In this document: piece after piece, positions 12,564-39,915 of the stretch
Position numbering within the stretch: position 1 is the stretch's first letter
Layout of the letters: every line of letters starts with the position of its first letter
DNA from: Catenuloplanes atrovinosus
Lineage (GTDB): Bacteria > Actinomycetota > Actinomycetes > Mycobacteriales > Micromonosporaceae
NCBI RefSeq assembly: GCF_031458235.1
Contig: NZ_JAVDYB010000001.1
Coordinates: forward strand, 248,001-312,000
Direction: 5' to 3'
DNA: 64,000 bases
Notes under the pieces: model-generated
Database searches by the model: none
What the model saw: the letters and a program-made list of their open reading frames with translations, nothing else
What the model was told of the DNA's origin: nothing
Program-made: the position numbers and the translations under genes

Positions 12564-12636
12564 TATACCCGCTTCCGGCCACCCGGGGTCCGCATGCTCC
12601 CGCGGGCACCGGTCGGCCGTGGCCGGCCTCCCTGCC
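12564..12636 (+). repeat. Dispersed 3'-UTR element, copy B
   Basis: Starts TATACCCGCTTCCGGCC 13 bp after the miaB stop. It contains GCATGCTCCCGCGGGCACCG, then a CGGCC/GGCCG hairpin, and ends CCTCCCTGCC. Best-preserved plus-strand copy. Confidence 0.85.
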
Positions 12637-12726
12637 ACTCCCGTGGCCGCAAGCCCATGCCCGCTCCGCGGCTCGTGGTGAGGCTGATCGGCATCGCCCC
12701 TCCGCGTGACGGTCACCGCCATCCCG

Positions 12727-12744
12727 CGATATAGCGATATATCG
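12727..12744. promoter_or_regulatory. AT-rich palindrome CGATATA-N4-TATATCG
   Basis: Perfect inverted repeat CGATATA-GCGA-TATATCG, an AT-rich island in very GC-rich DNA. It looks like an operator or protein-binding site, but no gene starts close by. Function unknown. Confidence 0.4.
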
Positions 12745-12780
12745 GGCGGCGCGAGCGCGCCCACCGCCGGCTCGGGCGAG

Positions 12781-12963
12781 TTCGCCGGCCTGCGCCGGAC
12801 GTCGCCGGCCTGCGCCGGACGTCGCCGGCCTGCGCCGGACGTCGTCGGCCTGCGCCGGACGTCGTCGGCCTGCGCCGGACGTCGCCGGCCTGCGCCGGAC
12901 GTCGCCGGACGTCGCCGGCCTGCGCCGGACTGCGCCGGACGAGTTCGCTGGCCTGCGCCGGAC
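12781..12963 (+). repeat. 20-bp tandem repeat array
   Basis: The unit GTCGCCGGCCTGCGCCGGAC is repeated as seven full copies from 12781 to 12930 with C/T variation at one site. A 10-bp half unit interrupts at 12901-12910, another follows at 12931-12940, and a final diverged copy ends at 12963. Each unit contains a CCGGCnnGCGCCGG partial palindrome. Confidence 0.9.
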
Positions 12964-13249
12964 CCGGATGCGGCGCTCGCCGGGCAGCGAGACGGTGAGC
13001 GGGGTGAGGCCGATGGCCGGGTTACCGAAACGCCTGCGGTTTTCCCCTGAGCCGTGGGTCAGATAAGCAAGAGCGAAGTCCATTTCGCTAGTGGATCGTC
13101 TCCTCGCTCACCTGATCGACCACTCAGCGCCCAGGAATGCGCATGACGCCCGGTGCCGAACAGATGTCGCGGCACGAGCCGCCCAGTGCCGGTTCTGCGG
13201 TTCGCGGACCGACGTCTCAGTCATTGCGACCCAAGCTTTCGGCGGCCGG

Positions 13250-13475
13250 TGGCCCCGGTGCCCGGTGGTGCCGGTGCCCGGCGGTCCCGGTGCTGGTTGG
13301 TCCCGGGGCTGGGTGGTCCTGGTGCCCGGTGCTGGGTGGCCCTGGTGCTGGGTGGTTCCGGTGCCCGGTGCTGGGTGGCCCTGGTGCTGGGTGGTCCCGG
13401 TGCCCGGTGCCCGGTGGCCCAAGGGCTCGGTGGTTCCGGTGCCCGGCGGCCCCGGTGCCCGGTGGGCGGGGGATC
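13250..13475 (+). repeat. GC-rich minisatellite
   Basis: Runs of GGTGCCCGGTG and GGTGCTGGGTGG(C/T) alternate with a basic unit of about 12-15 bp. A 39-bp higher-order unit beginning GGTGCCCGGTGCTGGGTGGC is repeated twice near 13319-13396. The plus strand is strongly G over C in GGTG context. Confidence 0.75.
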
Positions 13476-13670
13476 TCTCCGGTGTGGGTTCGCTGACCTG
13501 CCGCCTGTGGCTCTCATCGTCGACCGGCCCCACTGTGACCCGCGCCGATGCCCAATATTTCGCGATAGCGGGAAGGCATGGCATACGCGGCCGCCGATGG
13601 GATGTGGTGGGACCCGGCCGTCGCGTCGGTCGGCCCGTCCCCGAACGTGAAGCGGCGCGAGGAGCGGGAA

Positions 13671-13698
13671 CGGGGGTACGCCGTACGGCGTACCCCCG
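13671..13698. terminator. Terminator of the DUF349 gene
   Basis: Perfect inverted repeat with arms GGGGGTACGCCG / CGGCGTACCCCC and a 2-base centre, flanked by a C-G pair. It lies 9 bp after the DUF349 stop on the minus strand. Confidence 0.8.
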
Positions 13699-13707
13699 GA
13701 AGGGTTG

Positions 13708-14916
13708 TCAGCCGGCCTGTTCGGCGAGCTTGAGGAACTGCTGCTTGCCGGCGAGGGCCTTCTCCGCCTCGCGGATGCGCTTGGCGTCGCCGGAGGCCTT
13801 GGCGCGCTCGAGGCGCTGCTCGGCCTCGGCGACCTGGTCGCGCATCTGGGCGAGCAGCGGGTTGGCGGACGGCTCGGTGCGGCGCCAGGCGGAGTCCATG
13901 GCCTGGCGGAGCTTGTCCTCCACGGCGCGCATGCGGCGGTCGAGACTCGCCATGTTCTCCCGGGGGACGCGGCCGATGTCGTGCCACTGGCCCTGGATCT
14001 CGCGGAGCTTGTTCTGCGCGCCCTTGGGGTCGGCGTCGACGTCGACCGCCTCGGCCTCGGCCAGCAGCGCCTGCTTGCGCTCCAGGTTGCCCTTGAGTTC
14101 GGCGTCGCGGGCGGAGAAGACCTCGCTGCGGCGGGAGAAGAACGCGTCCTGCGCGGCGCGGAACCGGTCCCACAGCCGCTGCTCGGCCTCCTTGGAGGCG
14201 CGGGGCGCGGCCTTCCACTGGGCCATCAGGTCCTTCAGCCGGGCGGCGGTGTCGGCCCAGTCCTCGGAGCCGGAGAGCGACTCCGCCTCCTTGACCAGCT
14301 CCTCCTTGGCGGTCTGCGCCTGCTTGCGCTGCCCGTCCAGCGTGGCGAAGTGCGCGCCCCGGCGCCGGGTGAACCCGTCGCGCGCGGCCGCGAACCGCTT
14401 CCACAGCTCGCCGTCGGTCTTCTTGTCGATCCCGCGGATGGTCTTCCACTCGTCGAGGATCTCCTTGAGGCGGTCGCCCGCGGCCTTCCACCCGGTCGAC
14501 TCGGCGGCGATCTTCTCCGCCTCCTCGACCAGCGCGACCTTGCGGGCCTGCGCCTCGTTCCGAGCGGTCTCCTTCGCGGCCTTGGCCGCGGTGGCGCTCT
14601 CCTCGGCGAGCGTGGCCAGCCGGTCGAGGCGGGCCGCGAGCCCGTCGACGTCGCCGACCACGTGCGCCTCGGTCAGCTCGGCGCGAAGCTTCTTCACGCT
14701 GCTCAGCGAGTGCGCCGGGTCGGCCGCGCCGGACTTCAGCCGCGCCTCGATGAGGTCGACCTCGGTGACCTTGTCGGCGAAGCGTCGCGCGAAGTGGGCG
14801 AGGCCCTCCTCGGGCGTGCCCGCCTGCCAGGATCCGACCACGCGCTCGCCGTCGGCGGTCTTGCAGTAGACCGTGCCGTCGGCGTCCACCCGACCGTAGG
14901 CGGTCCAGTCGCTCAT
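13708..14916 (-). CDS. DUF349 domain-containing protein
   Basis: A 402-residue, highly charged, mostly helical protein. A short N-terminal domain (DWTAYGRVDADGTVYCKT) is followed by three to four DUF349 repeats, each with a W-K...I...LW.RF.AARD pattern (for example ELWKRFAAARDGFTRRR and RLWDRFRAAQDAFFSRR). The molecular role is unknown. DUF349 proteins are widespread in Actinobacteria. It is transcribed divergently from miaA. Its leader contains a GGAGGGAAA/TTTCCCTCC hairpin at 14944-14967, 27 bp upstream of the ATG. Confidence 0.88.
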   Translation of the reverse strand: MSDWTAYGRVDADGTVYCKTADGERVVGSWQAGTPEEGLAHFARRFADKVTEVDLIEARLKSGAADPAHSLSSVKKLRAELTEAHVVGDVDGLAARLDRLATLAEESATAAKAAKETARNEAQARKVALVEEAEKIAAESTGWKAAGDRLKEILDEWKTIRGIDKKTDGELWKRFAAARDGFTRRRGAHFATLDGQRKQAQTAKEELVKEAESLSGSEDWADTAARLKDLMAQWKAAPRASKEAEQRLWDRFRAAQDAFFSRRSEVFSARDAELKGNLERKQALLAEAEAVDVDADPKGAQNKLREIQGQWHDIGRVPRENMASLDRRMRAVEDKLRQAMDSAWRRTEPSANPLLAQMRDQVAEAEQRLERAKASGDAKRIREAEKALAGKQQFLKLAEQAG

Positions 14917-24312: not shown

Positions 24313-26568
24313 ATGACGTGCGAGACTAGCCGGATGCGGCGTGCGGTTTCTTCGATTGTTGTGGCGTTCGGGCTGGTCGCTGCCATGCCGTCGAGCGCCA
24401 TCGCGGCAGCGGCCGCGGAGCCCGCGAAGGGCCAGGAGGTCTGCAAACTCTCGGACGACGTGCTCGCCGAGCTGTCCGGCATCGCCGCCTACGAGGACGG
24501 CTACTTCGTCATCAACGACAGCTCGGACAACCCCGAGGCGAGCAAGGTCTTCTACCTCGACGGCAAGTGCAAGCTCCAGGGCGGGCGCGCCATCGAGTAC
24601 CCGGGAGCGCCGTCCGACACCGAGGACATGGCGCTCTCCCCGGACGGCAAGACGCTCTGGGTCGGCGACATCGGCGACAACGAGGGCAAGCGCGCGACGA
24701 TCGGCCTCTTCAAGATCGACCTCGCGGCCGAGGACCCGAAGGCGGTCTACTACCCGCTGCGCTACCCCGGCGACAACGCGCCCAATGCCGAGGCGCTGCT
24801 GGTCAACGGCGACGGCACGCCGATCGTGGTGACCAAGGAGGCGGCGATCGCGCACCTCTGGGTCCCGTCCGCGCCGCTCGAGAAGACCGAGAACGGCATC
24901 GAACTCAAAGAGGCCGGCGAGTGGAAGATCCCGCTGACCGAGACCAGCACCTGGCTCGGCGTGCCGGGCCGGCTCGCGGTCACCGGCGGCGCGGTGGCGC
25001 CCGGCGGCGCGAAGGTGACCCTCCGGACGTACGCGGACGCCTTCGAGTGGGAGGTGCAGAACGGCGACGTCATCGCGGCCGTGACCTCGGGTGAACCGCG
25101 GATCACCGGGCTGCCCGACGAGTCGTTCGGTGAGGCGATCACGTACAACGGGGACGGCTCCTCGTACGTGACGGTGTCCGAGGTGTCGCCCGGCCAGCAG
25201 TTCGCGAAGGACACGCCCAAGCTGCTCAAGTACGCGCCGGCGGACAACGCGGTGCAGGCGGACGCCGCGGGTGGCGACGGCCAGGGCGACGACCGGGCGT
25301 TCTGGGAGAAGCTCTCGCTCGGCCAGATCACGGCCGCGGTCGCGTCGGTCGGCATCGTCGGCCTGCTCATGCTCGGCGGCGGCATCGCGGGCATCGTGAT
25401 GTTCCGGCGCCGCAACCCGGAGCCGATCGAGGACGAGTCGCCGCTCAAGAGCAAGGCGGCCGAGGGCTCCGGCGACGGCGACCCGGAGCGGAGCGGCGGC
25501 ATCGGCCCGGAGTCCTCCGGGGCGAACCGGCGGGAGCCGGCCGCCGCGGGCGCGGGGTACGGCGGTGCCGCCCGGTCCGGTGGCGTCTACGGCGGCGGCC
25601 CGGCGGGCATGAGCGGCGGCGGGTCCGGCGCGGTGTACGGCGGCAACGGCTCGGGCAGCGGCGCGGCGCGCAGCGGTGGCGTGTACGGCGGCGGCCCGGC
25701 CGGGATGAACGGTGGCGGGTCCGGCGCGGTCTCGGGCGCGGTCTACGGCGCCGGCGGCAAGGCCGAGGGCCCGGGCGGCGGCAAGGCCGGCGGAGGCAAG
25801 GCCGGCGGCGTGTACGGCGGTGGCCCGGCCGGGATGAACGGCGGCGGGTCCGGCGCGGTCTACGGCGCCGGCGGACGCGGTGCCGCTCCCGGAGGTCCCG
25901 GCGGTGGCCAGGGCCGTGGCGGTCAGGGCGGTCCCCGTGGCGGTCGTGGTCCGCAGGATCCGCAGCAGAGCGGTGGCGTGTACGGCGGCGGCCCGGCCGG
26001 GATGAACGGTGGCGGGTCCGGCGCGGTCTACGGCGCGGGCGGGCAGAGCGGCGGCGGCCAGGGCCGAGGCGGTCAGGGCGGCCCTCGCGGCGGCGGCCCC
26101 GGTGGCGGCGGCCCGCGCGGCGGCGGTTCAGGCGCTCAGGGCGGTGGCCCGCGCGGCGGCGGTCAGGGCGGTCCCGGCGCTCAGGGGGGACCGGGCGGTC
26201 CGCGCGGCGGCCAGGGCGGAGCTCCCGGTGGCGGCCCGCGCGCCGGCGGTCCCGGCGGCCCGCGCGCCGGGAGTTCCGGCGGCCCGCGTGGCGGCGCGCC
26301 TCGCGGCCCGCAGCAGAGCGGCGGCAATCCGGTGCAGAGCGGCGGAAATCCGATGCAGTCCGGTGGTCATCCGCAGGGCGGCGGGCGCGGTCGTCCCCCG
26401 CGCCAGGGCGGCGGTGGCGGCGTGTACGGCGGCGGCCCGGCCGGCATGAACGGCGGCGGCTCCGGCGCGGTCTACGGCGGTGCCGAGGACAGCGGCGGTC
26501 ACGACCGCCGGGACGGCCGGCGCGGCGACTATCCGCAGAACCCGCCGTACGACGATCGCCGGCGCTGA
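24313..26568 (+). CDS. Membrane-anchored protein with secreted domain and Gly/Arg-rich repeat tail
   Basis: A 751-residue protein I cannot assign to a characterised family. A signal peptide (about residues 1-35, ending near AIAAAAAEPA) leads to an extracytoplasmic domain of about 290 residues. Its motifs SGIAAYEDGYFVINDSSDN and MALSPDGKTLWVGDIGDN suggest a beta-propeller. A transmembrane helix follows at residues 338-361, then RRR. The remaining ~380 residues are Gly-rich. Five copies of VYGGGPAGM(N/S)GGGSGAV occur (from 25585, 25681, 25810, 25978 and 26422), with GGPRGG/RGG-like runs between the fourth and fifth. Predicted topology puts the tail in the cytoplasm. ATG 24334 is an alternative start. 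Confidence 0.75.
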   Translation: MTCETSRMRRAVSSIVVAFGLVAAMPSSAIAAAAAEPAKGQEVCKLSDDVLAELSGIAAYEDGYFVINDSSDNPEASKVFYLDGKCKLQGGRAIEYPGAPSDTEDMALSPDGKTLWVGDIGDNEGKRATIGLFKIDLAAEDPKAVYYPLRYPGDNAPNAEALLVNGDGTPIVVTKEAAIAHLWVPSAPLEKTENGIELKEAGEWKIPLTETSTWLGVPGRLAVTGGAVAPGGAKVTLRTYADAFEWEVQNGDVIAAVTSGEPRITGLPDESFGEAITYNGDGSSYVTVSEVSPGQQFAKDTPKLLKYAPADNAVQADAAGGDGQGDDRAFWEKLSLGQITAAVASVGIVGLLMLGGGIAGIVMFRRRNPEPIEDESPLKSKAAEGSGDGDPERSGGIGPESSGANRREPAAAGAGYGGAARSGGVYGGGPAGMSGGGSGAVYGGNGSGSGAARSGGVYGGGPAGMNGGGSGAVSGAVYGAGGKAEGPGGGKAGGGKAGGVYGGGPAGMNGGGSGAVYGAGGRGAAPGGPGGGQGRGGQGGPRGGRGPQDPQQSGGVYGGGPAGMNGGGSGAVYGAGGQSGGGQGRGGQGGPRGGGPGGGGPRGGGSGAQGGGPRGGGQGGPGAQGGPGGPRGGQGGAPGGGPRAGGPGGPRAGSSGGPRGGAPRGPQQSGGNPVQSGGNPMQSGGHPQGGGRGRPPRQGGGGGVYGGGPAGMNGGGSGAVYGGAEDSGGHDRRDGRRGDYPQNPPYDDRRR

Positions 26569-32050: not shown

Positions 32051-32303
32051 GCCTTCCGGGTGTGCGTCGTCCTTCTCGCCCGCCGAGGAGCTCTCTCGCG
32101 CAGAGGCGATCTCCGTTTGACCCGCGGGCGGCGGCGCGGCGCGCGGCGGCCGGATCGTGCGCGGTGCTCGAAGGGAACCGCCTGCGGTGCCGGTTCCCGG
32201 CCTCGCACGTCAGTGCCCACGCCTCACCGAGGGTGACCGTGGTTGCGCGACTGATCTAGCCTGCGTTGCGTTGATCGAGGTCCTGCTACCGAAAGTGACG
32301 CAC

Positions 32304-33107
32304 GTGAAGTCTGTGAAGATCACCATCGCCATCCTGTCCGCGGCCACCGTCCTGGGCGTCGCCGCCGGGTGCGGGGGGAGCGGTGACGCCGGTGGAACGG
32401 GTACGCCGGCGGCGGGCGGGACGACCGCGGCCGCGCCCGCGACCACGCCGGCCGATCCGAAGGAGGCGTTCCTCGGCGCGTTCGCGGCGCTGAACGAGCG
32501 GCACTTCGCGTACACGCTGACGCTGGACGAGACGAAGGCCTCCGGCGTCATGCACGCGCCGTCGACGTCGTCGCGCAGCGTGTCCGAGGGCGAGCTGGAG
32601 GGCACGAAGTTCAGCACCGAGACCGTGTACGCGGGCGGCAAGGCGTTCGTGAAGCTGGACTTCGGCGCGGCCAACGCCAACATCGGCATCGACCCGGCGA
32701 CCTGGTACGAGCTGGACCTGAACGTGGCCAAGCAGCTGAACTACACGTTCGAGCAGCAGTCGCCGATCCAGCCGAGCTTCTCCACGTCGATCGCCTCGGT
32801 GGAGCGGGACGGGGACGACGCGTTCACCGGCGCGTTCGACTTCGCGGCCGCCACGAAGGGCAACCCGAGCGCGCAGACCAAGTCGCTGGTGCAGATGCTC
32901 GGCGACGCCGCGAAGTCGGCGACGTTCGACGCGCACCTGGACGACCAGGGGCGCATCGCCGAACTGGTGTTCACGATCGCGAAGACGGACAAGACGCCGG
33001 AGATCAAGCAGACGCTGACGTTCACCGAGTACGGCACGGCCGCGGCGCCCGAGGTGCCGACGAACGCGCAGCCCGCCCCGGCCTCGCTGAACAACCTCTA
33101 CAAGTGA
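32304..33107 (+). CDS. Secreted lipoprotein of unknown function
   Basis: A 267-residue lipoprotein. A basic/hydrophobic signal ends in the lipobox GVAAGC (Cys23), followed by a Gly/Thr/Ala/Pro linker. The roughly 200-residue domain has alternating hydrophobic strands (FAYTLTLDE, TWYELDLNV, RIAELVFTI). The pattern recalls the LppX/LprG-like beta-sheet lipoproteins of Actinobacteria, but no diagnostic motif is visible, so I leave the function open. GTG 32295 is an alternative start. It is followed by its own terminator and is probably monocistronic. Confidence 0.8.
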   Translation: MKSVKITIAILSAATVLGVAAGCGGSGDAGGTGTPAAGGTTAAAPATTPADPKEAFLGAFAALNERHFAYTLTLDETKASGVMHAPSTSSRSVSEGELEGTKFSTETVYAGGKAFVKLDFGAANANIGIDPATWYELDLNVAKQLNYTFEQQSPIQPSFSTSIASVERDGDDAFTGAFDFAAATKGNPSAQTKSLVQMLGDAAKSATFDAHLDDQGRIAELVFTIAKTDKTPEIKQTLTFTEYGTAAAPEVPTNAQPAPASLNNLYK

Positions 33108-33148: not shown

Positions 33149-33409
33149 TCGGCATTGCATAAAGATTCGATGACGAACCATTACGACAAATCGTCCAGAT
33201 AACGCGTAAAGGCCGCGGCGCATCACGGATCGTGGCCGTGATTTGACGCTCTGACGAATTATCGAGGCTCGATGCTCGGAGCCGGTCGACCGGGACGGTT
33301 ACCCTCGTGCGGAACCGTGGCACGGCATCAAGGCAGGCGAAAAGCGCGACGATGCCGCACGGTCGCTATCGGCGGGCCAGACGGGGGCCCCCGCTCGGTA
33401 AAGGTGACC
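33149..33409 (+). promoter_or_regulatory. AT-rich promoter and structured leader of the polysaccharide operon
   Basis: From 33155 to 33260 the DNA is markedly AT-richer than its surroundings. It contains ATCACGG-N7-CCGTGAT (33222-33242), a possible operator. The leader near 33320-33357 can pair CGGCATC with GATGCCG around GGCAGGCGAAAAGCGCG. It does not match a riboswitch I know. Confidence 0.4.
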
Positions 33410-34957
33410 ATGCAGAACAGCGATCAGGACACCGTTCTTCTGCCGAAGATACGGTTCCCGGACCTCGATGAGGACGGCGACGGAGACGAGCGCCCGGACG
33501 CCTGGTCGGCGCCGGACGGCGAGGGACCGGCACGGCGCGCGCTGACCACGGTCGCGTGGCTGCTGCCGATGCTCGCCATGGCGGCGCTCGGCATGGTCCG
33601 GCTCACGTGGAGCAGCCTCTCCGCGGACGAGCTCGGCTACTGGGCGTTCGTGACCACGCCCTGGGACGAGGCGCTGGACCTGCTCGGCGAGCTGGACTCC
33701 GGCACCGTCCCGTACCACGTGGCGCTCAAGGCGTACGCGATGGCCGCCGGCACCTCGGATCTGGCGCTGCGCGCGCCGTCGGCGCTGTTCATGGCGCTGG
33801 CCGCGGCGCTGGTGGCGGGCCTCGGCGCGCGCCTGACCCGGCCGCGCACCGGCTTCACCGCGGGCATCCTGTTCGTGATCGTGCCGGGCGTGACCCGGTT
33901 CGGCCAGGAGATCGGCCCGACCGCGGCCGCGGCGTTCCTGACCGCACTGAGCACGTTGTTGCTGGTCCTGGTGCTGGACCGGGGGACCGGCTGGCGCTAC
34001 ACCGGGTACGCGTTCACCGTCCTGCTGCTCGGCCTGACGCTGCCGGTCGCGCTGCTCGTCCTGGCGGGGCACGGCTTCGCGGTGCTGATGATGCGCCGCC
34101 GCGCGCTGCTCGGCTGGCTGCTCGCCACCGTGCTGGGCCTGGTCCCGGCGATCGGCTCGATCGTCTACCTCGGCCTGCCGACCGTCCGCATCGGACTGGA
34201 CACCTCCACCGAACTGCTGGACGTGACCACGGTCGCGAGCGCGCTGTTCGGCACCGCGCTGGTCGGCGGCGCGCTGGTCGGGCTGGGCCTGATCAGCGTC
34301 TCGTTCCGCAAGCCGTCCGTCATCTACAGCTGCTGGGCGGTGATCCCGGTCGTGCTGCTCTACGCGCTGAGCCGGGTCGGCCTGAGCTGGGAGGCGCCCG
34401 CGCTCGCGTTCACGCTGGGCGGCTGGGCGCTGCTCGGCGCGCACGCGCTGCACCGCGCGCCGGTGGTGCGCGGCGTGGCGGCCGGGCTGATCCTGGCCGC
34501 GTTCTGCGTGCCGAGTCAGATCGCGGTCCGGCAGCGCGACGGGCACGGCCTGGCCAGCGCGGAACTCGGCGCGATCATCACCGGTCAGGCGCTGCGCGGC
34601 GACGTCGCGGTCTACGGCCCGGGCCCGAAGAGCGGCGCGGTCGGCCGGGACGTGGTCGCCCGATACGTACCGGCGGACATCCGCCCGGCGGACGTGCTCG
34701 CGCTGACGCCGCCGCGCACCGACGGCCGGATCGTGGTGGACGAGTGCGCGGACGTGGCGCGCTGTCTCGACGGCGCGCTGCGCGTGTGGCTGATCCGCAC
34801 GGACCGCCCGGAGTCGCCGCTGACCGGCCTGCCCGCGGCCAAGGCGAACCCGCTCGGCGACCTGTACGACGTGGACCGCACGTGGTACCTGTCCGGGCTG
34901 ATGCTGGTGCGGTTCACGCTCAAGCCGACCGGGCCGGACCAGGTGCGGGTCGGATAG
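33410..34957 (+). CDS. GT39-like polytopic membrane glycosyltransferase
   Basis: A 515-residue integral membrane protein with an acidic cytoplasmic N-terminus (about 45 residues) and roughly 10-11 transmembrane helices. The first periplasmic loop, LSADELGYWAFVTTPWDEAL, carries the acidic residues expected at the active site of GT-C glycosyltransferases (dolichyl/polyprenyl phosphate-mannose type). This is followed by a large extracytoplasmic C-terminal part. ATG 33410 lies shortly before the first helix region. The next gene, a GT2 synthase, starts 3 bp after the stop. Likely role: sugar transfer to, or modification of, the polymer made by the operon. Confidence 0.72.
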   Translation: MQNSDQDTVLLPKIRFPDLDEDGDGDERPDAWSAPDGEGPARRALTTVAWLLPMLAMAALGMVRLTWSSLSADELGYWAFVTTPWDEALDLLGELDSGTVPYHVALKAYAMAAGTSDLALRAPSALFMALAAALVAGLGARLTRPRTGFTAGILFVIVPGVTRFGQEIGPTAAAAFLTALSTLLLVLVLDRGTGWRYTGYAFTVLLLGLTLPVALLVLAGHGFAVLMMRRRALLGWLLATVLGLVPAIGSIVYLGLPTVRIGLDTSTELLDVTTVASALFGTALVGGALVGLGLISVSFRKPSVIYSCWAVIPVVLLYALSRVGLSWEAPALAFTLGGWALLGAHALHRAPVVRGVAAGLILAAFCVPSQIAVRQRDGHGLASAELGAIITGQALRGDVAVYGPGPKSGAVGRDVVARYVPADIRPADVLALTPPRTDGRIVVDECADVARCLDGALRVWLIRTDRPESPLTGLPAAKANPLGDLYDVDRTWYLSGLMLVRFTLKPTGPDQVRVG

Positions 34958-34959
34958 CC

Positions 34960-36279
34960 ATGCTCGCCTTCCTGCTGCAACTCAACGCGTGGGCGACGAC
35001 CGGGCAGCTCTACCTGTTCGCGCTCTTCATGATCATGGTCTGGGGGCTGTGGCTGCTGCGCATCACGCTCGCGCGCTATTACAAGCCCTGGACCAGGCCG
35101 TACGGTACGACCACCTCCGTGATCATCCCGGTCGTGGACGAGCCGGAGCAGCTGTTCCGGGCCGTGCTGGAGCGCATCGTGGAGCAGCGGCCCACCGAGA
35201 TCATCGTGGTGATCAACGGGCCGCGGAACGAGCTGCTGGAGAAGATCTGCGGGTCGATGGACGTACGGTGGGCGTGGACCGAGACGCCCGGCAAACGCAA
35301 CGCGCTGCGCATCGGCGTCGGGCTGATGACCTCGGACATCGCGGTCCTGGTCGACTCCGACACGGTGTGGACGCGGGACACGCTGTCCGAGCTGATCAAG
35401 CCGTTCGCGGACGCGCGGGTCGGCGGCGTCACCACGCGCCAGCGCATCCTCGACCCCGGCCGTAGCCTGCTGACCCGCTGGGCGGACTGGCTGGAGAACG
35501 TGCGCAACGAGTACTCGATGCCGGCCATGAGCGTGCTCGGCACCGTCGGCTGCCTGCCCGGCCGGACCATCGCGTTCCGCCGGTCGATCCTGGTGCGCTC
35601 GATGGACAAGTTCCTGAGCGAGCGGTTCCTCGGCGTGTTCCTCGAGGTCAGCGACGACCGCACGCTGACCAACTACACGCTGCGGGCCGGGTACCGCACG
35701 GTCTACCAGTCGACGTCGCTGGTCTACACGGACGCGCCGACGCGGCTGGGCAAGCTGGTCCGGCAGCAGTACCGGTGGGCGCGCGGCTCGCAGTACAACA
35801 CGCTGCGCATGCTGCCCTGGATGGCGCGGCACACGCCGCTGCTGGCCCTCTTCTACCTCGCCGACATCGTGGTGCCGTTCGTGCTGGTCGGCTCGTTCGT
35901 GTCGTGGGGCGTCACACTGGTCACCGGCCGGGAGGCCGCGCTCTACGACGCGCTGCCGCTGCCCGCGTCGCGGTGGGCCGCGCTCGGGATGATCCTGGCG
36001 CTCAGCGGCGTGCTCACCACGCTGTCGCTCGGGCTGCGGTTCGGGCGCCACTTCGCGTACCGGCCGAACGACCTGGCTCATCTGCCGGCGTTCATGCTGA
36101 TCAACACGTTCGTGCTGATCCCGGTCCGGGTGCTCGGCTTCTTCCGGATGGCGCACAACGCGGGCTGGGGCACGCGGGCCGGCGGCTTCGCGGGGGAGAA
36201 GCGCCGCAGCCCGCTGCTGGTCGTCCCTTACCTGCTGGGCGTCCTGCTGCTCGGGATCTCGGTGGTGATCGGTGTCTGA
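34960..36279 (+). CDS. GT2 family processive-type glycosyltransferase
   Basis: A 439-residue membrane glycosyltransferase of the hyaluronan/cellulose-synthase type. One N-terminal helix (about 15-35) is followed by a GT-A domain with SVIIPVVDEPEQL and VDSDTVW (DxD), an acceptor/base region LEVSDDRTLTNY, and QQYRWARGSQ (the Q-x-x-R-W motif of processive synthases). Four C-terminal helices complete it. Such proteins polymerise and extrude a beta-linked polysaccharide. It sits in an operon with a GT39-like protein and two glycoside hydrolases. The polymer identity is unknown. Confidence 0.85.
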   Translation: MLAFLLQLNAWATTGQLYLFALFMIMVWGLWLLRITLARYYKPWTRPYGTTTSVIIPVVDEPEQLFRAVLERIVEQRPTEIIVVINGPRNELLEKICGSMDVRWAWTETPGKRNALRIGVGLMTSDIAVLVDSDTVWTRDTLSELIKPFADARVGGVTTRQRILDPGRSLLTRWADWLENVRNEYSMPAMSVLGTVGCLPGRTIAFRRSILVRSMDKFLSERFLGVFLEVSDDRTLTNYTLRAGYRTVYQSTSLVYTDAPTRLGKLVRQQYRWARGSQYNTLRMLPWMARHTPLLALFYLADIVVPFVLVGSFVSWGVTLVTGREAALYDALPLPASRWAALGMILALSGVLTTLSLGLRFGRHFAYRPNDLAHLPAFMLINTFVLIPVRVLGFFRMAHNAGWGTRAGGFAGEKRRSPLLVVPYLLGVLLLGISVVIGV

Positions 36280-37384
36280 CGGGGCCGACGTCTTCAAACT
36301 CTCCGACCTGTCCCGGACGGCGCGGGAGGAGCGGCGGGGCCGCATCCGGTTCCGGGTCTGGATGACCGTGCACACGATCGCGCTGCTCGGGCTGGCCGGC
36401 TGGGTCCTGCTGCCGGAGTCGACCGGCTCCGACCTGAAGCCGATCGACTCCCGCGCCGCCGCGGCGGCCGCGATGGAGACGACGGCACCGCCCACCAAGG
36501 AGGACGTCCTCGCGATCCCGGGCGTCCGCTTCGGGCTGAGCGCGCCGCAGGTGCCGTACTCGGCCACCGAGTTGGAGCGGATCAGCGAGGCGGCCGGGTC
36601 CCGGCCCACGATGCTCCAGTTCTTCGTGAAGTGGACCGAGACGCTGCGCCCGGAGAGCATCGAGCTGGCGTACCTGGAGAACGCGCTGCCGGTCGTCTCC
36701 TGGGAGCCCTGGGCCGGGTCCGGCGCGGGCGAGGACCAGCCGGAGTACGCGCTGGCCAGGATCGCGTCCGGCGCGCACGACGACTACATCCGCGCCTTCG
36801 CCACCACGGTCCGGGACAGCGGCCTGCCGGTGGCGCTACGGTTCGCGCACGAGATGAACGGCACCTGGTACCCGTGGTCCGAGCGCCACTCCGGCAACGC
36901 CGCCGGCGACTACGTGAAGGCGTGGCGGCACGTGCACGACACGTTCCGCGAGGTCGGCGCGGACAACGTCATCTGGGTGTGGAGCCCGAACATCCTGCGC
37001 CCGGTGCCGAACGTCAGCCTGGCCGCGCTCTACCCCGGGGACGAGTACGTGGACTGGGCCGGCCTGGTCGGATACGCGGTGCGGGAGAAGACCGCGCGCG
37101 AGGTCTTCGAGCCCACGATCACCGCGATCCGGAAGATCACCGACAAGCCGTTCCTGATCACGGAGACCGGCGCGGTGGCGAGCGACCGCAAGGTCGGCTG
37201 GATCACCGACTTCTTCACCTGGCTGCCGACCCAGGAGGGACTGGTCGGCTTCGTCTGGTTCGAGTTCAGCGACGACGAGGGCGGCACCGAGGACTGGCGG
37301 TTCAGCGCGGACAGCCGGTGCGCCGCGGCGTTCAGCGCGGGAATGTCGACGTTGACGCCGGCCGCCCCGCCGCTGGGGTCCTGA
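36272..37384 (+). CDS. Membrane-anchored glycoside hydrolase family 26 protein
   Basis: A 370-residue type-II membrane protein: cytoplasmic N-terminus, one helix at about residues 31-48, then an extracytoplasmic GH26 domain. GH26 members are mostly beta-mannanases. The acid/base Glu194 lies in HEMNGTWYPW and the nucleophile Glu298 in LITETGAV; the barrel strands VVSWEPW and VIWVWSPN are also present. The GTG start overlaps the GT2 gene by 8 bp. A hydrolase in a synthase operon commonly trims or releases the polymer, hinting at a mannose-containing product. Confidence 0.85.
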   Translation: MSDGADVFKLSDLSRTAREERRGRIRFRVWMTVHTIALLGLAGWVLLPESTGSDLKPIDSRAAAAAAMETTAPPTKEDVLAIPGVRFGLSAPQVPYSATELERISEAAGSRPTMLQFFVKWTETLRPESIELAYLENALPVVSWEPWAGSGAGEDQPEYALARIASGAHDDYIRAFATTVRDSGLPVALRFAHEMNGTWYPWSERHSGNAAGDYVKAWRHVHDTFREVGADNVIWVWSPNILRPVPNVSLAALYPGDEYVDWAGLVGYAVREKTAREVFEPTITAIRKITDKPFLITETGAVASDRKVGWITDFFTWLPTQEGLVGFVWFEFSDDEGGTEDWRFSADSRCAAAFSAGMSTLTPAAPPLGS

Positions 37385-37407
37385 TAAAGCACATGATGGA
37401 GAGTTCC

Positions 37408-38919
37408 GTGGACCCTGGCGCCCGCGCCGTGAGCCGCCGCGCCGTCGCCCTGATCGCCGCCGCGGTCGTGGCCGTGCTGGCCGGTGGCCTGGCCGTGATC
37501 GTGTTGGTGAACCGCCCGGACGACGACCCCCCGCCGCAGCCCGTGATCGCCGGGGGCAGCACCGTGACGGTCGACGCCGCGCGGGACCTGGGGCCGTTCG
37601 GCAACCCGGCCGGCTTCCAGAACCAGAGCGGGCCCGAGGAGCCGCTCGGCTCGGCCGACCTGGACCGGGTCGCGCGGCTGGAGCCGCAGGTGGTGCGCGC
37701 GTGGTTCAAGCCGCACATGTACTACGACCACGAGGCGACGACGTTCGACTTCGACTTCGCCACCGGCAACGGCGACAGCGCCTACGACTACTACGACCAG
37801 GTCGCCGCGCAGGGCGAGTCGATCATCGGCAACTTCGACCAGTGCGACCAGGTGCTGATGCGGCTGGACCGCACCGAGGACTGCCGCTGGGTGCTGAAGG
37901 CCGGCCTGCTCCACTACAAGAAGCGGTACCCGTCGCTGCGGTACATCGAGGTGTTCAACGAGCCGGACAAGACCTGGAAGCCGAGCGCGATCGAGCAGCC
38001 GGCGATGTCGCTGGACGACTACTACCGCTGGTACCAGGTCGCGTACCGGGTGGTGAACGAGGTCAACGACGAGCTGGCGCCGGACGTGCCGCTGGAGATC
38101 GGCGGTCCCTCGTCGTACACGTTCAACGAGGACTTCCTGACCGGCTTCCTCGACCGGTACGTCCGGGACGGCGACCCGGACAAGAGGTTCGCGTTCATCT
38201 CCTATCACCAGTACGCCCAGCGTGAGCGCCCGGCGACGGTGGCCCGGGAGCGCGAGATCGTCCGCGGCTGGATGCGGGAGCGGAAGCTGGACGAGGACCG
38301 GCCGGTGTTCGTCACCGAGTACGGCATCTTCCCCGGTGCGAACACCGGCACCACGTTCGAGGCGGACCTGCTCACGCACGCCGCCGGCATGGCCACGCTG
38401 GGCCGCTACTACGCGTACAGCGGCACCGACATGTACCTGCACTGGGTGTACGACCACCTGGAGAACGAGCGGAAGTCGATGTTCGTGGACGACGTCGACG
38501 GCGGCGTCTACCCGTACTACAACCTGGTCCTGATGCAGCGCATGCTGGCCACCCGGCTGGTGCCGGCCGAGTCCGACGCGGTGACGGACACCGGCATCGG
38601 CGTGTCCGCGGTCGCCACCACCGAGGACCGGAAGGTGGCGGTGCTGCTGACCAACTACCAGTGGACGACCGGCGCGGCCGAGCACGACGTGACGCTCGCG
38701 CTGCGGAACCTGCCGGCCACGCTGACCGCGGGCGAGGTCACGGTGGAGCGGTACCTGGTCGACGCGCGGACCAGCAACCGCACGTCCAACCCGCTGGGTC
38801 AGGACCTGCAGCGGGTGGAGCGGTACGACACCAGGCTCACCGCGTCCGCGGACCTGGGCCTGCACCTCGGCGTCAACGCCATGTCGCTGGTGGTGATCAC
38901 GCCCAAGGGCGCTCGGTAA
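37408..38919 (+). CDS. Membrane-anchored clan GH-A glycoside hydrolase (GH39/GH5-like)
   Basis: A 503-residue protein with an N-terminal membrane helix (about residues 10-33) and an extracytoplasmic TIM-barrel. The acid/base Glu185 is in VFNEPDK and the nucleophile Glu304 in FVTEYGIF, the clan GH-A pair. A C-terminal beta-rich domain (KVAVLLTNYQW, VERYLVDA) fits GH39. I chose GTG 37408 because GGAGAG lies four bases before it; ATG 37393 or 37396 would add four or five residues. PslG, the Psl polysaccharide hydrolase, has a similar anchored GH39 layout, so a role in polymer release is plausible. Confidence 0.78.
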   Translation: MDPGARAVSRRAVALIAAAVVAVLAGGLAVIVLVNRPDDDPPPQPVIAGGSTVTVDAARDLGPFGNPAGFQNQSGPEEPLGSADLDRVARLEPQVVRAWFKPHMYYDHEATTFDFDFATGNGDSAYDYYDQVAAQGESIIGNFDQCDQVLMRLDRTEDCRWVLKAGLLHYKKRYPSLRYIEVFNEPDKTWKPSAIEQPAMSLDDYYRWYQVAYRVVNEVNDELAPDVPLEIGGPSSYTFNEDFLTGFLDRYVRDGDPDKRFAFISYHQYAQRERPATVAREREIVRGWMRERKLDEDRPVFVTEYGIFPGANTGTTFEADLLTHAAGMATLGRYYAYSGTDMYLHWVYDHLENERKSMFVDDVDGGVYPYYNLVLMQRMLATRLVPAESDAVTDTGIGVSAVATTEDRKVAVLLTNYQWTTGAAEHDVTLALRNLPATLTAGEVTVERYLVDARTSNRTSNPLGQDLQRVERYDTRLTASADLGLHLGVNAMSLVVITPKGAR

Positions 38920-39008
38920 CGTTCGCGCACCTGGACGGGCGGTCGACCGCGATCACGGCGTACCCCCGGCGGCTCGTCAGGTGCGGCCTGGGACTCGGCG
39001 CGCTGCTG

Positions 39009-39347
39009 GTGCTCGTGATGGCCGTGCTCGCGCCGGACCTGCTGGCCGTGCGGCGCGGACTGCCCGGCGCGATCCCGGTCGCGGTGATCTGCGGCGCCGC
39101 CGGGACCGCGCTGCCGGTGGTCGTGCCGCGCGCGGCCGCGTGCTGGCAACCCGGCGGCCCGCCCTGGCCCGCGCTGGCGCGCGCCGCCGCGTCCCGGTCC
39201 GGCACCGACCCGCGCGGCTCACTGCTGCCGGTGGCCGGGCTCGGCGTGGCCGGGGCGTGCACCTGGCAGCTGCCGCCGCCGGCGATTCCCGCGTTCGGCT
39301 GCCTGCTGATCGCCGCGCTCGCGGTGGAACGCCGGCCACGTCTCTAG
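39009..39347 (+). CDS. Possible small membrane protein, start uncertain
   Basis: The frame is hydrophobic and protein-like, with two to three membrane segments (LLVLVMAVLAPDLLAV, IPVAVICGAAGTALPVVV, FGCLLIAALAVE). It is open from within the end of the upstream hydrolase gene to TAG at 39345. The first in-frame start codon after that gene is GTG 39009, which falls inside the first hydrophobic segment and lacks a ribosome site. The gene may have lost its start or may not be expressed. Confidence 0.35.
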   Translation: MLVMAVLAPDLLAVRRGLPGAIPVAVICGAAGTALPVVVPRAAACWQPGGPPWPALARAAASRSGTDPRGSLLPVAGLGVAGACTWQLPPPAIPAFGCLLIAALAVERRPRL

Positions 39348-39357
39348 GCTGGACGCC

Positions 39358-39915
39358 GTGCCCACACTGACCGTGATCATCGCCAGCACCCGCCCCGGCC
39401 GCGCCGGCACGCCCGTCGCCCGCTGGGTCGTCGACCGCGCCGAGGCGCACGGCGGCTTCGACGTCCGCGTCGCCGACCTCGCGGAGATCAACCTGCCGCT
39501 GCTGGACGAGCCGAACCACCCCCGCCTCCGCCGGTACGAGCACGAGCACACCAGGGCGTGGAGCGCGCTCGTCGACGCCTCCGACGCGTTCGTGATCGTC
39601 ACGCCGGAGTACAACCACGGGTATCCCGCGCCGCTCAAGAACGCGCTCGACTACCTGCACGCGGAGTGGGCGCACAAGGCGGTCGGCCTGGTCAGCTACG
39701 GCGCCGTGGCCGGTGGCGTGCGATCGGTGCAGGCGCTGAAGCCGGTGCTGCAGTACCTGAAGATGATCCCGGCCGGCGAAGGCGTGATCATCCCGTTCGT
39801 GGCCCGGCACATCGTCGACGGTGCGCTGCAGCCGACGCCCGCGCTCGAGCAGTCCGCGACCGCGATGCTGGACGAGCTGCGGCGCCTGGAGGCCACGCTG
39901 CGCCCGCTGCGCTGA
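39358..39915 (+). CDS. NADPH-dependent FMN reductase family protein
   Basis: A 185-residue flavodoxin-fold oxidoreductase. IIASTRPGRAGTPVARWV forms the phosphate-binding loop of FMN. TPEYNHGYPAPLKNALDYL is the hallmark of the NADPH-dependent FMN reductase/SsuE-like family. YGAVAGGVRSVQAL completes the flavin site. It reduces flavins or quinones with NADPH; the physiological acceptor is unknown. GTG 39358 is the only sensible start. It appears monocistronic. Confidence 0.9.
   Translation: MPTLTVIIASTRPGRAGTPVARWVVDRAEAHGGFDVRVADLAEINLPLLDEPNHPRLRRYEHEHTRAWSALVDASDAFVIVTPEYNHGYPAPLKNALDYLHAEWAHKAVGLVSYGAVAGGVRSVQALKPVLQYLKMIPAGEGVIIPFVARHIVDGALQPTPALEQSATAMLDELRRLEATLRPLR

Follow-up and report, generated by a model that had tools for sequence, protein, structure and literature searches.

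A GT2–GH26 gene pair kept together across much of the Actinomycetota and its candidate role in making an acidic exopolysaccharide

Which polymer is made by a gene cluster that encodes both a polysaccharide synthase and enzymes that might cut its product? The question is raised by four genes of Catenuloplanes atrovinosus (Micromonosporaceae) in a 64,000 bp stretch of contig NZ_JAVDYB010000001.1 (positions 248,001 to 312,000; this whole stretch, called the window here, lies within a single 8.9-Mb contig, and coordinates are counted from its first nucleotide). The GT2 synthase gene and the GH26 hydrolase gene of this cluster are direct neighbours in much of the Actinomycetota and are the core of the module. 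Our preferred reading, to which we assign a probability of about one half (0.52), is that this is a synthase-dependent exopolysaccharide module, whose acidic, glucuronate-containing polymer would be extruded by the GT2 protein, cut by the GH26 protein and decorated by a GT-C glycosyltransferase. The four genes, all intact and tightly packed, are the following.

33410..34957, + strand: GT-C membrane glycosyltransferase, PMT_2/GT39-like, 515 amino acids (AAs); Pfam PMT_2 match below the cut-off, matched by its relatives
34960..36279, + strand: processive GT2 synthase, 439 AAs; Pfam PF13641, predicted fold of the hyaluronan synthase kind
36272..37384, + strand: membrane-anchored GH26 hydrolase, lichenase (CtLic26A)-type, 370 AAs; GTG start, Pfam GH26
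37408..38919, + strand: membrane-anchored GH39-like clan-A hydrolase, 503 AAs; GTG start, accessory gene of the module

The first two genes are separated by 2 nt, the GT2 and GH26 genes overlap by 8 bp, and 23 nt lie between the last two. A first-pass annotation of this DNA had described the same four genes, and its general family assignments, membrane anchors, catalytic glutamate pairs, 8 bp overlap and 23 bp gap are borne out; the 3 bp gap that it gave for the first two genes is 2 nt, and no start codon stands at 33149, where it began the operon. The earliest start that follows a stop is at 33272, and the ATG at 33410 is likely the true GT-C start since the closest relative, in the sister genome L051, aligns from that methionine. 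A simple hydropathy scan finds eight hydrophobic stretches in the GT-C protein, five in GT2 and a single N-terminal helix in each hydrolase (residues 29–47 of the GH26 and 16–34 of the GH39-like protein).

Conservation of the gene order

Among 300 Micromonosporaceae genomes, 11 carry the GT2 gene (match at E ≤ 1e-60), and in all 11 the GT-C, GT2 and GH26 genes are directly adjacent in that order. For the phylum, one genome per species was scanned with two short peptide patterns, which gives a list that is not complete. Of the 79 loci that it yielded, those at ≥53% identity (43) entered the counts, and those at ≤30% (36, L137–L172) were set aside before neighbours were counted. With four duplicates (L095, L096, L116 and L121) removed and the window and family loci included, there are 50 distinct loci. 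The phylum carriers include Streptomyces, Kitasatospora, Streptacidiphilus, Actinacidiphila, Actinospica, Actinocrinis, Georgenia, Nocardioides and others, as well as metagenome-assembled genomes (MAGs) of Acidimicrobiia and Pseudonocardiales. The GH26 gene is directly 3' of the GT2 gene in 49 of the 50 distinct loci, and the exception is a contig that stops 8 bp past the GT2 match (L128); this conservation is far beyond chance. The 8 bp overlap is kept too, and begins the GH26 reading frame in 45 loci out of 52 when the duplicates are counted as well; 46 start codons were counted at that position, one of which (L118) is out of frame with its GH26. Gene order in relatives was a check that the first-pass annotation had set for its own proposal, and the proposal passes it.

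The fixed unit in the Micromonosporaceae is thus GT-C, GT2 and GH26, and the fourth gene varies: in the 11 family loci the gene after GH26 is GH39-like in four (the window, G004, G321 and G123), a GH92 gene in four (all of one genus) and neither in three. The four-gene order of the window is found in three genera of the family, with one further gene separating GH26 from the GH39-like gene in G004, and also in an actinomycete MAG (L094). Across the 50 loci a GT-C gene is present in 25, upstream in 12 and downstream of GH26 in 13, and clustering of all neighbours gives the same recurrent families. The presence of two hydrolases, which had been thought exceptional, is not so, since 38 of the 50 loci encode at least two hydrolases within 8 kb. 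An acyltransferase-SGNH protein is encoded in eight of the 50 loci, which suggests that the polymer is O-acylated in some lineages. The glmS neighbour of the Kitasatospora loci was not used as evidence, because it looks like part of a fixed housekeeping region.

These counts bear directly on the idea that the hydrolases feed on external plant polymers and stand beside a synthase gene by accident. In its favour, the additional GH26 genes (a second and a third) and the GH39-like gene differ from locus to locus, and free-standing relatives of the GH39-like gene are found elsewhere (L054, L055 with a CBM35-like match). We consider it highly improbable, however, in view of the 49/50 adjacency and conserved overlap from Streptomyces to Acidimicrobiia, and of the membrane anchor that the hydropathy scan finds in 43 of 48 GH26 proteins.

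Several other features were seen among these loci. Longer GT2 genes are grouped with GT-C and GH26 genes in other Micromonosporaceae (L060–L066 and L086–L093), in at least two orders (GT-C, GT2, GH26 and GT2, GH26, GT-C), and may represent a parallel family of modules of this kind. The GT2 gene of one locus (L084:8237–9551) is split across two reading frames by a frameshift or a sequencing error. A 366-AA proline-rich membrane protein with a single helix and without a Pfam match is encoded on the opposite strand about 1.6 kb upstream in 14 loci (L109:6504–7604 and 13 others). Two distant actinomycetes encode, inside or beside the module, a secreted protein of 435 AAs that has no convincing match in Pfam and by eye resembles repeat-rich tail-fibre-like proteins (L051:8535–9842 and L117:13550–14734).

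The synthase, its linked dehydrogenase and the GH26 hydrolase

The GT2 protein (Pfam PF13641, 87 bits) has hyaluronan synthases as its best PDB sequence matches (9e-22, with a profile of 39 sequences), and its AlphaFold2 model (predicted local distance difference test, pLDDT, 89) aligns with the hyaluronan synthases of Xenopus and a Chlorella virus at Z 31.9–35.5 (for the virus enzyme Z 35.5, root mean square deviation 2.4 over 359 residues). Other folds score lower: the archaeal mannosyltransferase PcManGT at Z 30.2, chitin synthase at no more than 27.2, cellulose synthase at no more than 26.8 and barley CslF6 at 18.6. The motifs DSD, SDDR, QQxRW and WGTR are invariant, x excepted, in all 39 aligned sequences, so that every one has the DxD, DD and QxxRW of the membrane GT2 of a synthase-dependent system. 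By its predicted fold and core motifs, then, this GT2 would work like a hyaluronan synthase.

The active site can be compared with that of the Chlorella virus synthase, in which, according to the available text of PMC12987647, E93, K177, D201, D203, R341 and W342 bind metal, UDP and the glucuronate carboxylate, the latter being held by K177 and R341, and in which a change of D302 to Asn inactivates the enzyme. When residues were matched by eye on the profile-versus-PDB alignment, the GT2 positions equivalent to all seven of these residues were invariant in 39/39 sequences. The same text gives Arg348 as conserved across bacterial and eukaryotic hyaluronan synthases (PMC12987647). That residue and Gly300 of the GDD motif, as they are described there, are replaced by Tyr279 and Ser231 in 39/39 module GT2s, and the equivalent of Tyr91 is Val in 38/39. 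Since two residues conserved in hyaluronan synthases are replaced, the module GT2 is not simply one of them, and we do not file it as such. The C. atrovinosus genome also has, at 8.26 Mb, a GT2 paralogue that is 33% identical to the module GT2 and has both GDD and the Arg348 equivalent (8385–9668 of L177, genome positions 8258000–8277000), near a UDP-glucose dehydrogenase gene (12602–13924) and a gene that by eye is GalU-like; judged by sequence, that locus appears more hyaluronan-synthase-like than the module itself.

A second kind of product would be a homopolymer of N-acetylglucosamine, like chitin or poly-N-acetylglucosamine (PNAG), from a NodC-type enzyme. NodC (TIGR04242) is the top NCBIfam model for the GT2 protein, and tblastn finds NodC proteins, but its 100 bits are far below the cut-off of 550, as are the 42.9 bits for PgaC (TIGR03937) below 422.3, and membership of the NodC family was rejected on this ground. 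With no deacetylase gene among the annotated neighbours, and with the linked dehydrogenase described next left unexplained, such a homopolymer seems distinctly unlikely.

A gene for UDP-glucose 6-dehydrogenase lies within 8 kb of the module in 23 of the 50 loci, all 23 being among the 39 outside the Micromonosporaceae. Chance would give about 0.4 in 50 (from 4 copies in 8.9 Mb), although the loci share ancestry and are not independent, so that a binomial value for the linkage is not a true probability. The dehydrogenase gene is upstream in Streptomyces and Streptacidiphilus and comes immediately after GH26 in Nocardioides, in Georgenia and in several MAGs, and a Curtobacterium plasmid has GT2, GH26 and dehydrogenase genes as one overlapping operon, with a 4 bp overlap between the latter two. 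Five sampled dehydrogenases score 347–389 bits on TuaD/AglM, the NCBIfam models for UDP-glucose dehydrogenases, against 152–190 on those for ManNAc dehydrogenases, all below the equivalog cut-offs. None of 22 control loci, centred on longer GT2s, on GH26 genes without the module GT2 or on free GH39-like genes (L054–L057, L060–L069 and L086–L093), has the dehydrogenase; most are from the window's family, which itself has none in 11 loci, and the control is accordingly weak. On Lactococcus and Enterococcus plasmids, more distant GT2 genes (28% identity to the window GT2 in the one compared) are paired with a gene for a nucleotide sugar dehydrogenase in a set of two. A GT-C gene and the dehydrogenase gene occur together in nine loci, and so are not alternatives to one another. 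The linkage of the GT2–GH26 pair to UDP-glucose 6-dehydrogenase in relatives points to glucuronic acid as a component of the polymer.

The GH26 protein (Pfam PF02156, 61.7 bits against a cut-off of 20.2) has its closest match among solved structures in CtLic26A, a lichenase from Clostridium thermocellum that was deposited as Endoglucanase H: a profile built from 38 GH26 sequences matches it over the whole domain at 2.6e-50 and 175 bits, the next GH26 structure in the PDB reaches 2e-17 and 67 bits, and mannanases about 64 bits or less. The single window protein ranks the structures in the same order. The glutamates E194 and E298, which family analogy suggests are the catalytic pair, are present in 38/38 aligned sequences. 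This ranking does not support the mannanase-type assignment of the first-pass annotation, and a lichenase-type GH26 would fit a mixed-linkage chain.

A neutral mixed-linkage beta-1,3/1,4-glucan, trimmed by GH26 as CcsZ and BcsZ trim cellulose, would also suit a lichenase, and a GH12 gene follows GH26 in one locus (L122); the GT2 type of mixed-linkage glucan synthase occurs in Gram-positives, according to the part of PMC10374906 consulted. The linked dehydrogenase (23/50) would however have no role in making such a glucan, and the predicted GT2 fold is nearer to hyaluronan synthase (Z 35) than to the cellulose synthase and CslF6 folds, so that we regard a neutral glucan as unlikely, though it deserves some weight.

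For the preferred acidic polymer we envisage the following. UDP-sugars, probably including UDP-glucuronic acid, would be polymerised by GT2 inside the cell and the chain pushed through the enzyme's own membrane channel, as in hyaluronan synthase. The polymer would most likely contain glucuronic acid, which might alternate with either glucose or N-acetylglucosamine through a mixture of beta-1,3 and beta-1,4 linkages. The GH26 enzyme, translated with the synthase and tethered outside the membrane, would cut the emerging chain and so set its length or release it. In C. atrovinosus the GT-C protein would use a polyprenyl-phosphate donor to attach a side sugar, which might be alpha-mannose, on the outer side of the membrane, and the GH39-like protein would be a second, optional trimming enzyme.

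Several points weigh against this reading. Residues K177 and R341 sit in GKR and QxxRW motifs that are common to related synthases with other products and thus do not discriminate between products, and the Gly300 and Arg348 replacements noted above affect all 39 aligned module GT2s. That the GH26 is closest to a lichenase depends on few solved GH26 structures, a thin sampling of the family. In the Micromonosporaceae none of the 11 loci, that of the window among them, has the dehydrogenase gene within 8 kb, and the copies in the C. atrovinosus genome (four matches in 8.9 Mb) lie elsewhere. The weakest step is that from linkage in relatives to glucuronic acid in the polymer of C. atrovinosus itself. 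The basis throughout is sequence and predicted structure.

The GT-C and GH39-like genes and the flanking genes

The GT-C protein of the window scores 22.9 bits on Pfam PF13231 (PMT_2), below the cut-off of 26.1, but of its 27 aligned relatives all except one have a PMT_2 match at E ≤ 0.001, the best at 2.3e-12. Residue E74 is present in 26/27 and R163 in 27/27, and a sequence search of the PDB gave no match up to E 1. The GH92 family that follows GH26 in some loci is known for alpha-mannosidases. Mannose is kept as a possible side-chain sugar because the GT-C is PMT_2-like and GH92 adjoins the module in 4/11 family loci.

The first-pass annotation had proposed a mannose-containing, perhaps branched, surface polymer, taken here to mean a mannose-containing backbone trimmed by a mannanase. 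Its general picture of a synthase-type polysaccharide operon with anchored hydrolases stands; the mannan itself is weakly founded and was dropped as the best guess on the GH26 ranking against the PDB. It is true that the GH26 family includes mannanases and that PcManGT is the next GT2 fold match after the hyaluronan synthases, but CtLic26A outscores the mannanases by a wide margin (175 bits against about 64 or less), the GT-C and GH92 evidence bears on side chains and not on the backbone, and the linked UDP-glucose dehydrogenase is again unexplained. We therefore think a mannose backbone very unlikely.

The GH39-like protein scores 17.5 bits on Pfam PF01229, under the cut-off of 26, and a match at E ≤ 0.01 is obtained for nine of 12 relatives; its profile finds a GH39 beta-xylosidase in the PDB at 1.3e-9. 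The model (pLDDT 86) has a (beta/alpha)8 fold and matches GH39 folds at Z about 29–31 (2bfg: Z 30.1, 2.9 Å, 404 residues), though with no wide margin over other families (GH39 Z 30 against 28 for GH30 and 26 for GH51). Iduronidases also rank high in Foldseek, from which no substrate conclusion is drawn, and PslG is not among the matches listed in the fold comparison, which carries no weight. The glutamates E185 and E304, probably catalytic by family analogy, are present in 12/12 aligned sequences, so that the glutamate pairs of both hydrolases are intact as first described. The gene is a rare, optional accessory of the module: it is present in 5/50 distinct loci, matches over most of its length in 8 of the 300 family genomes (six more have a weak match to the N-terminal part only), and has homologues in 3 of 394 genomes of the class in a wider search (E ≤ 1e-30). 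Some copies are free-standing with extra domains.

An upstream lipoprotein-like gene (32262–33107), which is also near the module in the sister genome L051, and a downstream pair, a small open reading frame (38920–39347) and a flavin mononucleotide (FMN) reductase gene (39358–39915), were considered as operon members and excluded, because the downstream pair lies 3.7 kb beyond the GH39-like gene in L051 and none of the three was found in other loci (tblastn, E ≤ 1e-6 to 1e-8). Elsewhere in the window, 24313–26568 encodes a membrane protein in which low-complexity repetition of GGVYGGGPAGMNGGGSGAVYG-type units makes up the C-terminal part.

Relation to known systems and meaning

Class I hyaluronan synthase operons (hasA-hasB-hasC; the role of hasB and hasC is stated in the available part of PMC4443731) are the closest parallel, having a single GT2 with the same predicted fold, a cytosolic catalytic domain with a transmembrane channel, and a UDP-glucose dehydrogenase gene like that linked to the module in 23/50 loci. 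The module differs in its GH26 gene coupled to the synthase, in its GT-C gene and in its replaced Gly300 and Arg348, and the window operon itself is without a dehydrogenase gene. The GT2 and linked dehydrogenase are also comparable to the pneumococcal type 3 pair Cps3D-Cps3S. In the cellulose-type systems BcsA-BcsZ and CcsA-CcsZ a processive GT2 likewise has a hydrolase encoded alongside; the module differs from these in that a Pfam scan of the GT2, of 439 AAs only, finds no match to the PilZ domain that BcsA would have, in that the hydrolase is of another family, and in that GT2 is nearer to hyaluronan than to cellulose synthase. PslG is a GH39-type clan-A enzyme that serves polymer export, although Psl is made by a different pathway; it shares the GH39-type fold predicted for the module's GH39-like protein, which is optional here.

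A GH26 gene inside an exopolysaccharide cluster is known from the same bacterial family: the available text of a 2026 study describes the wps-1 cluster of Actinoplanes missouriensis as 11 genes, Wzx/Wzy-type, with sulfotransferases and the GH26 protein WpsE, and its authors were aware of no GH26 in a cluster of that kind (PMC13390465). The same text describes no synthase-type GT2–GH26 pair for wps-1, and the part consulted of a paper on A. missouriensis sporangium matrix hydrolases makes no mention of GH26 (PMC12691653). No description of the GT2–GH26 pair was found in the open literature, subscription journals being mostly outside the scope of the search, and PMC13390465 is the nearest report.

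A fuller proposal, which we hold tentatively and at somewhat less than even odds, is that the Actinomycetota have an undescribed glycosaminoglycan-like surface polymer, made by an atypical hyaluronan-synthase-like GT2 that is cotranslated with a tethered lichenase-type GH26, the latter cutting the acidic mixed-linkage product as it is extruded; in the Micromonosporaceae GT-C side chains and interchangeable GH39-like or GH92 trimming enzymes would be added to it. Knowledge of the surface sugars of filamentous actinomycetes is sparse, and if the proposal is true a two-gene core that extends from Streptomyces and the Micromonosporaceae to the Acidimicrobiia would be a tractable entry to one of them, and would widen the range of hyaluronan-synthase-type export by a group for which the literature searched holds no report of it. 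The module would also allow a direct test of whether a bacterium's own acidic polymer can be a substrate of GH26 enzymes, and may be a source of new pairs of polymer-making and polymer-cutting enzymes.

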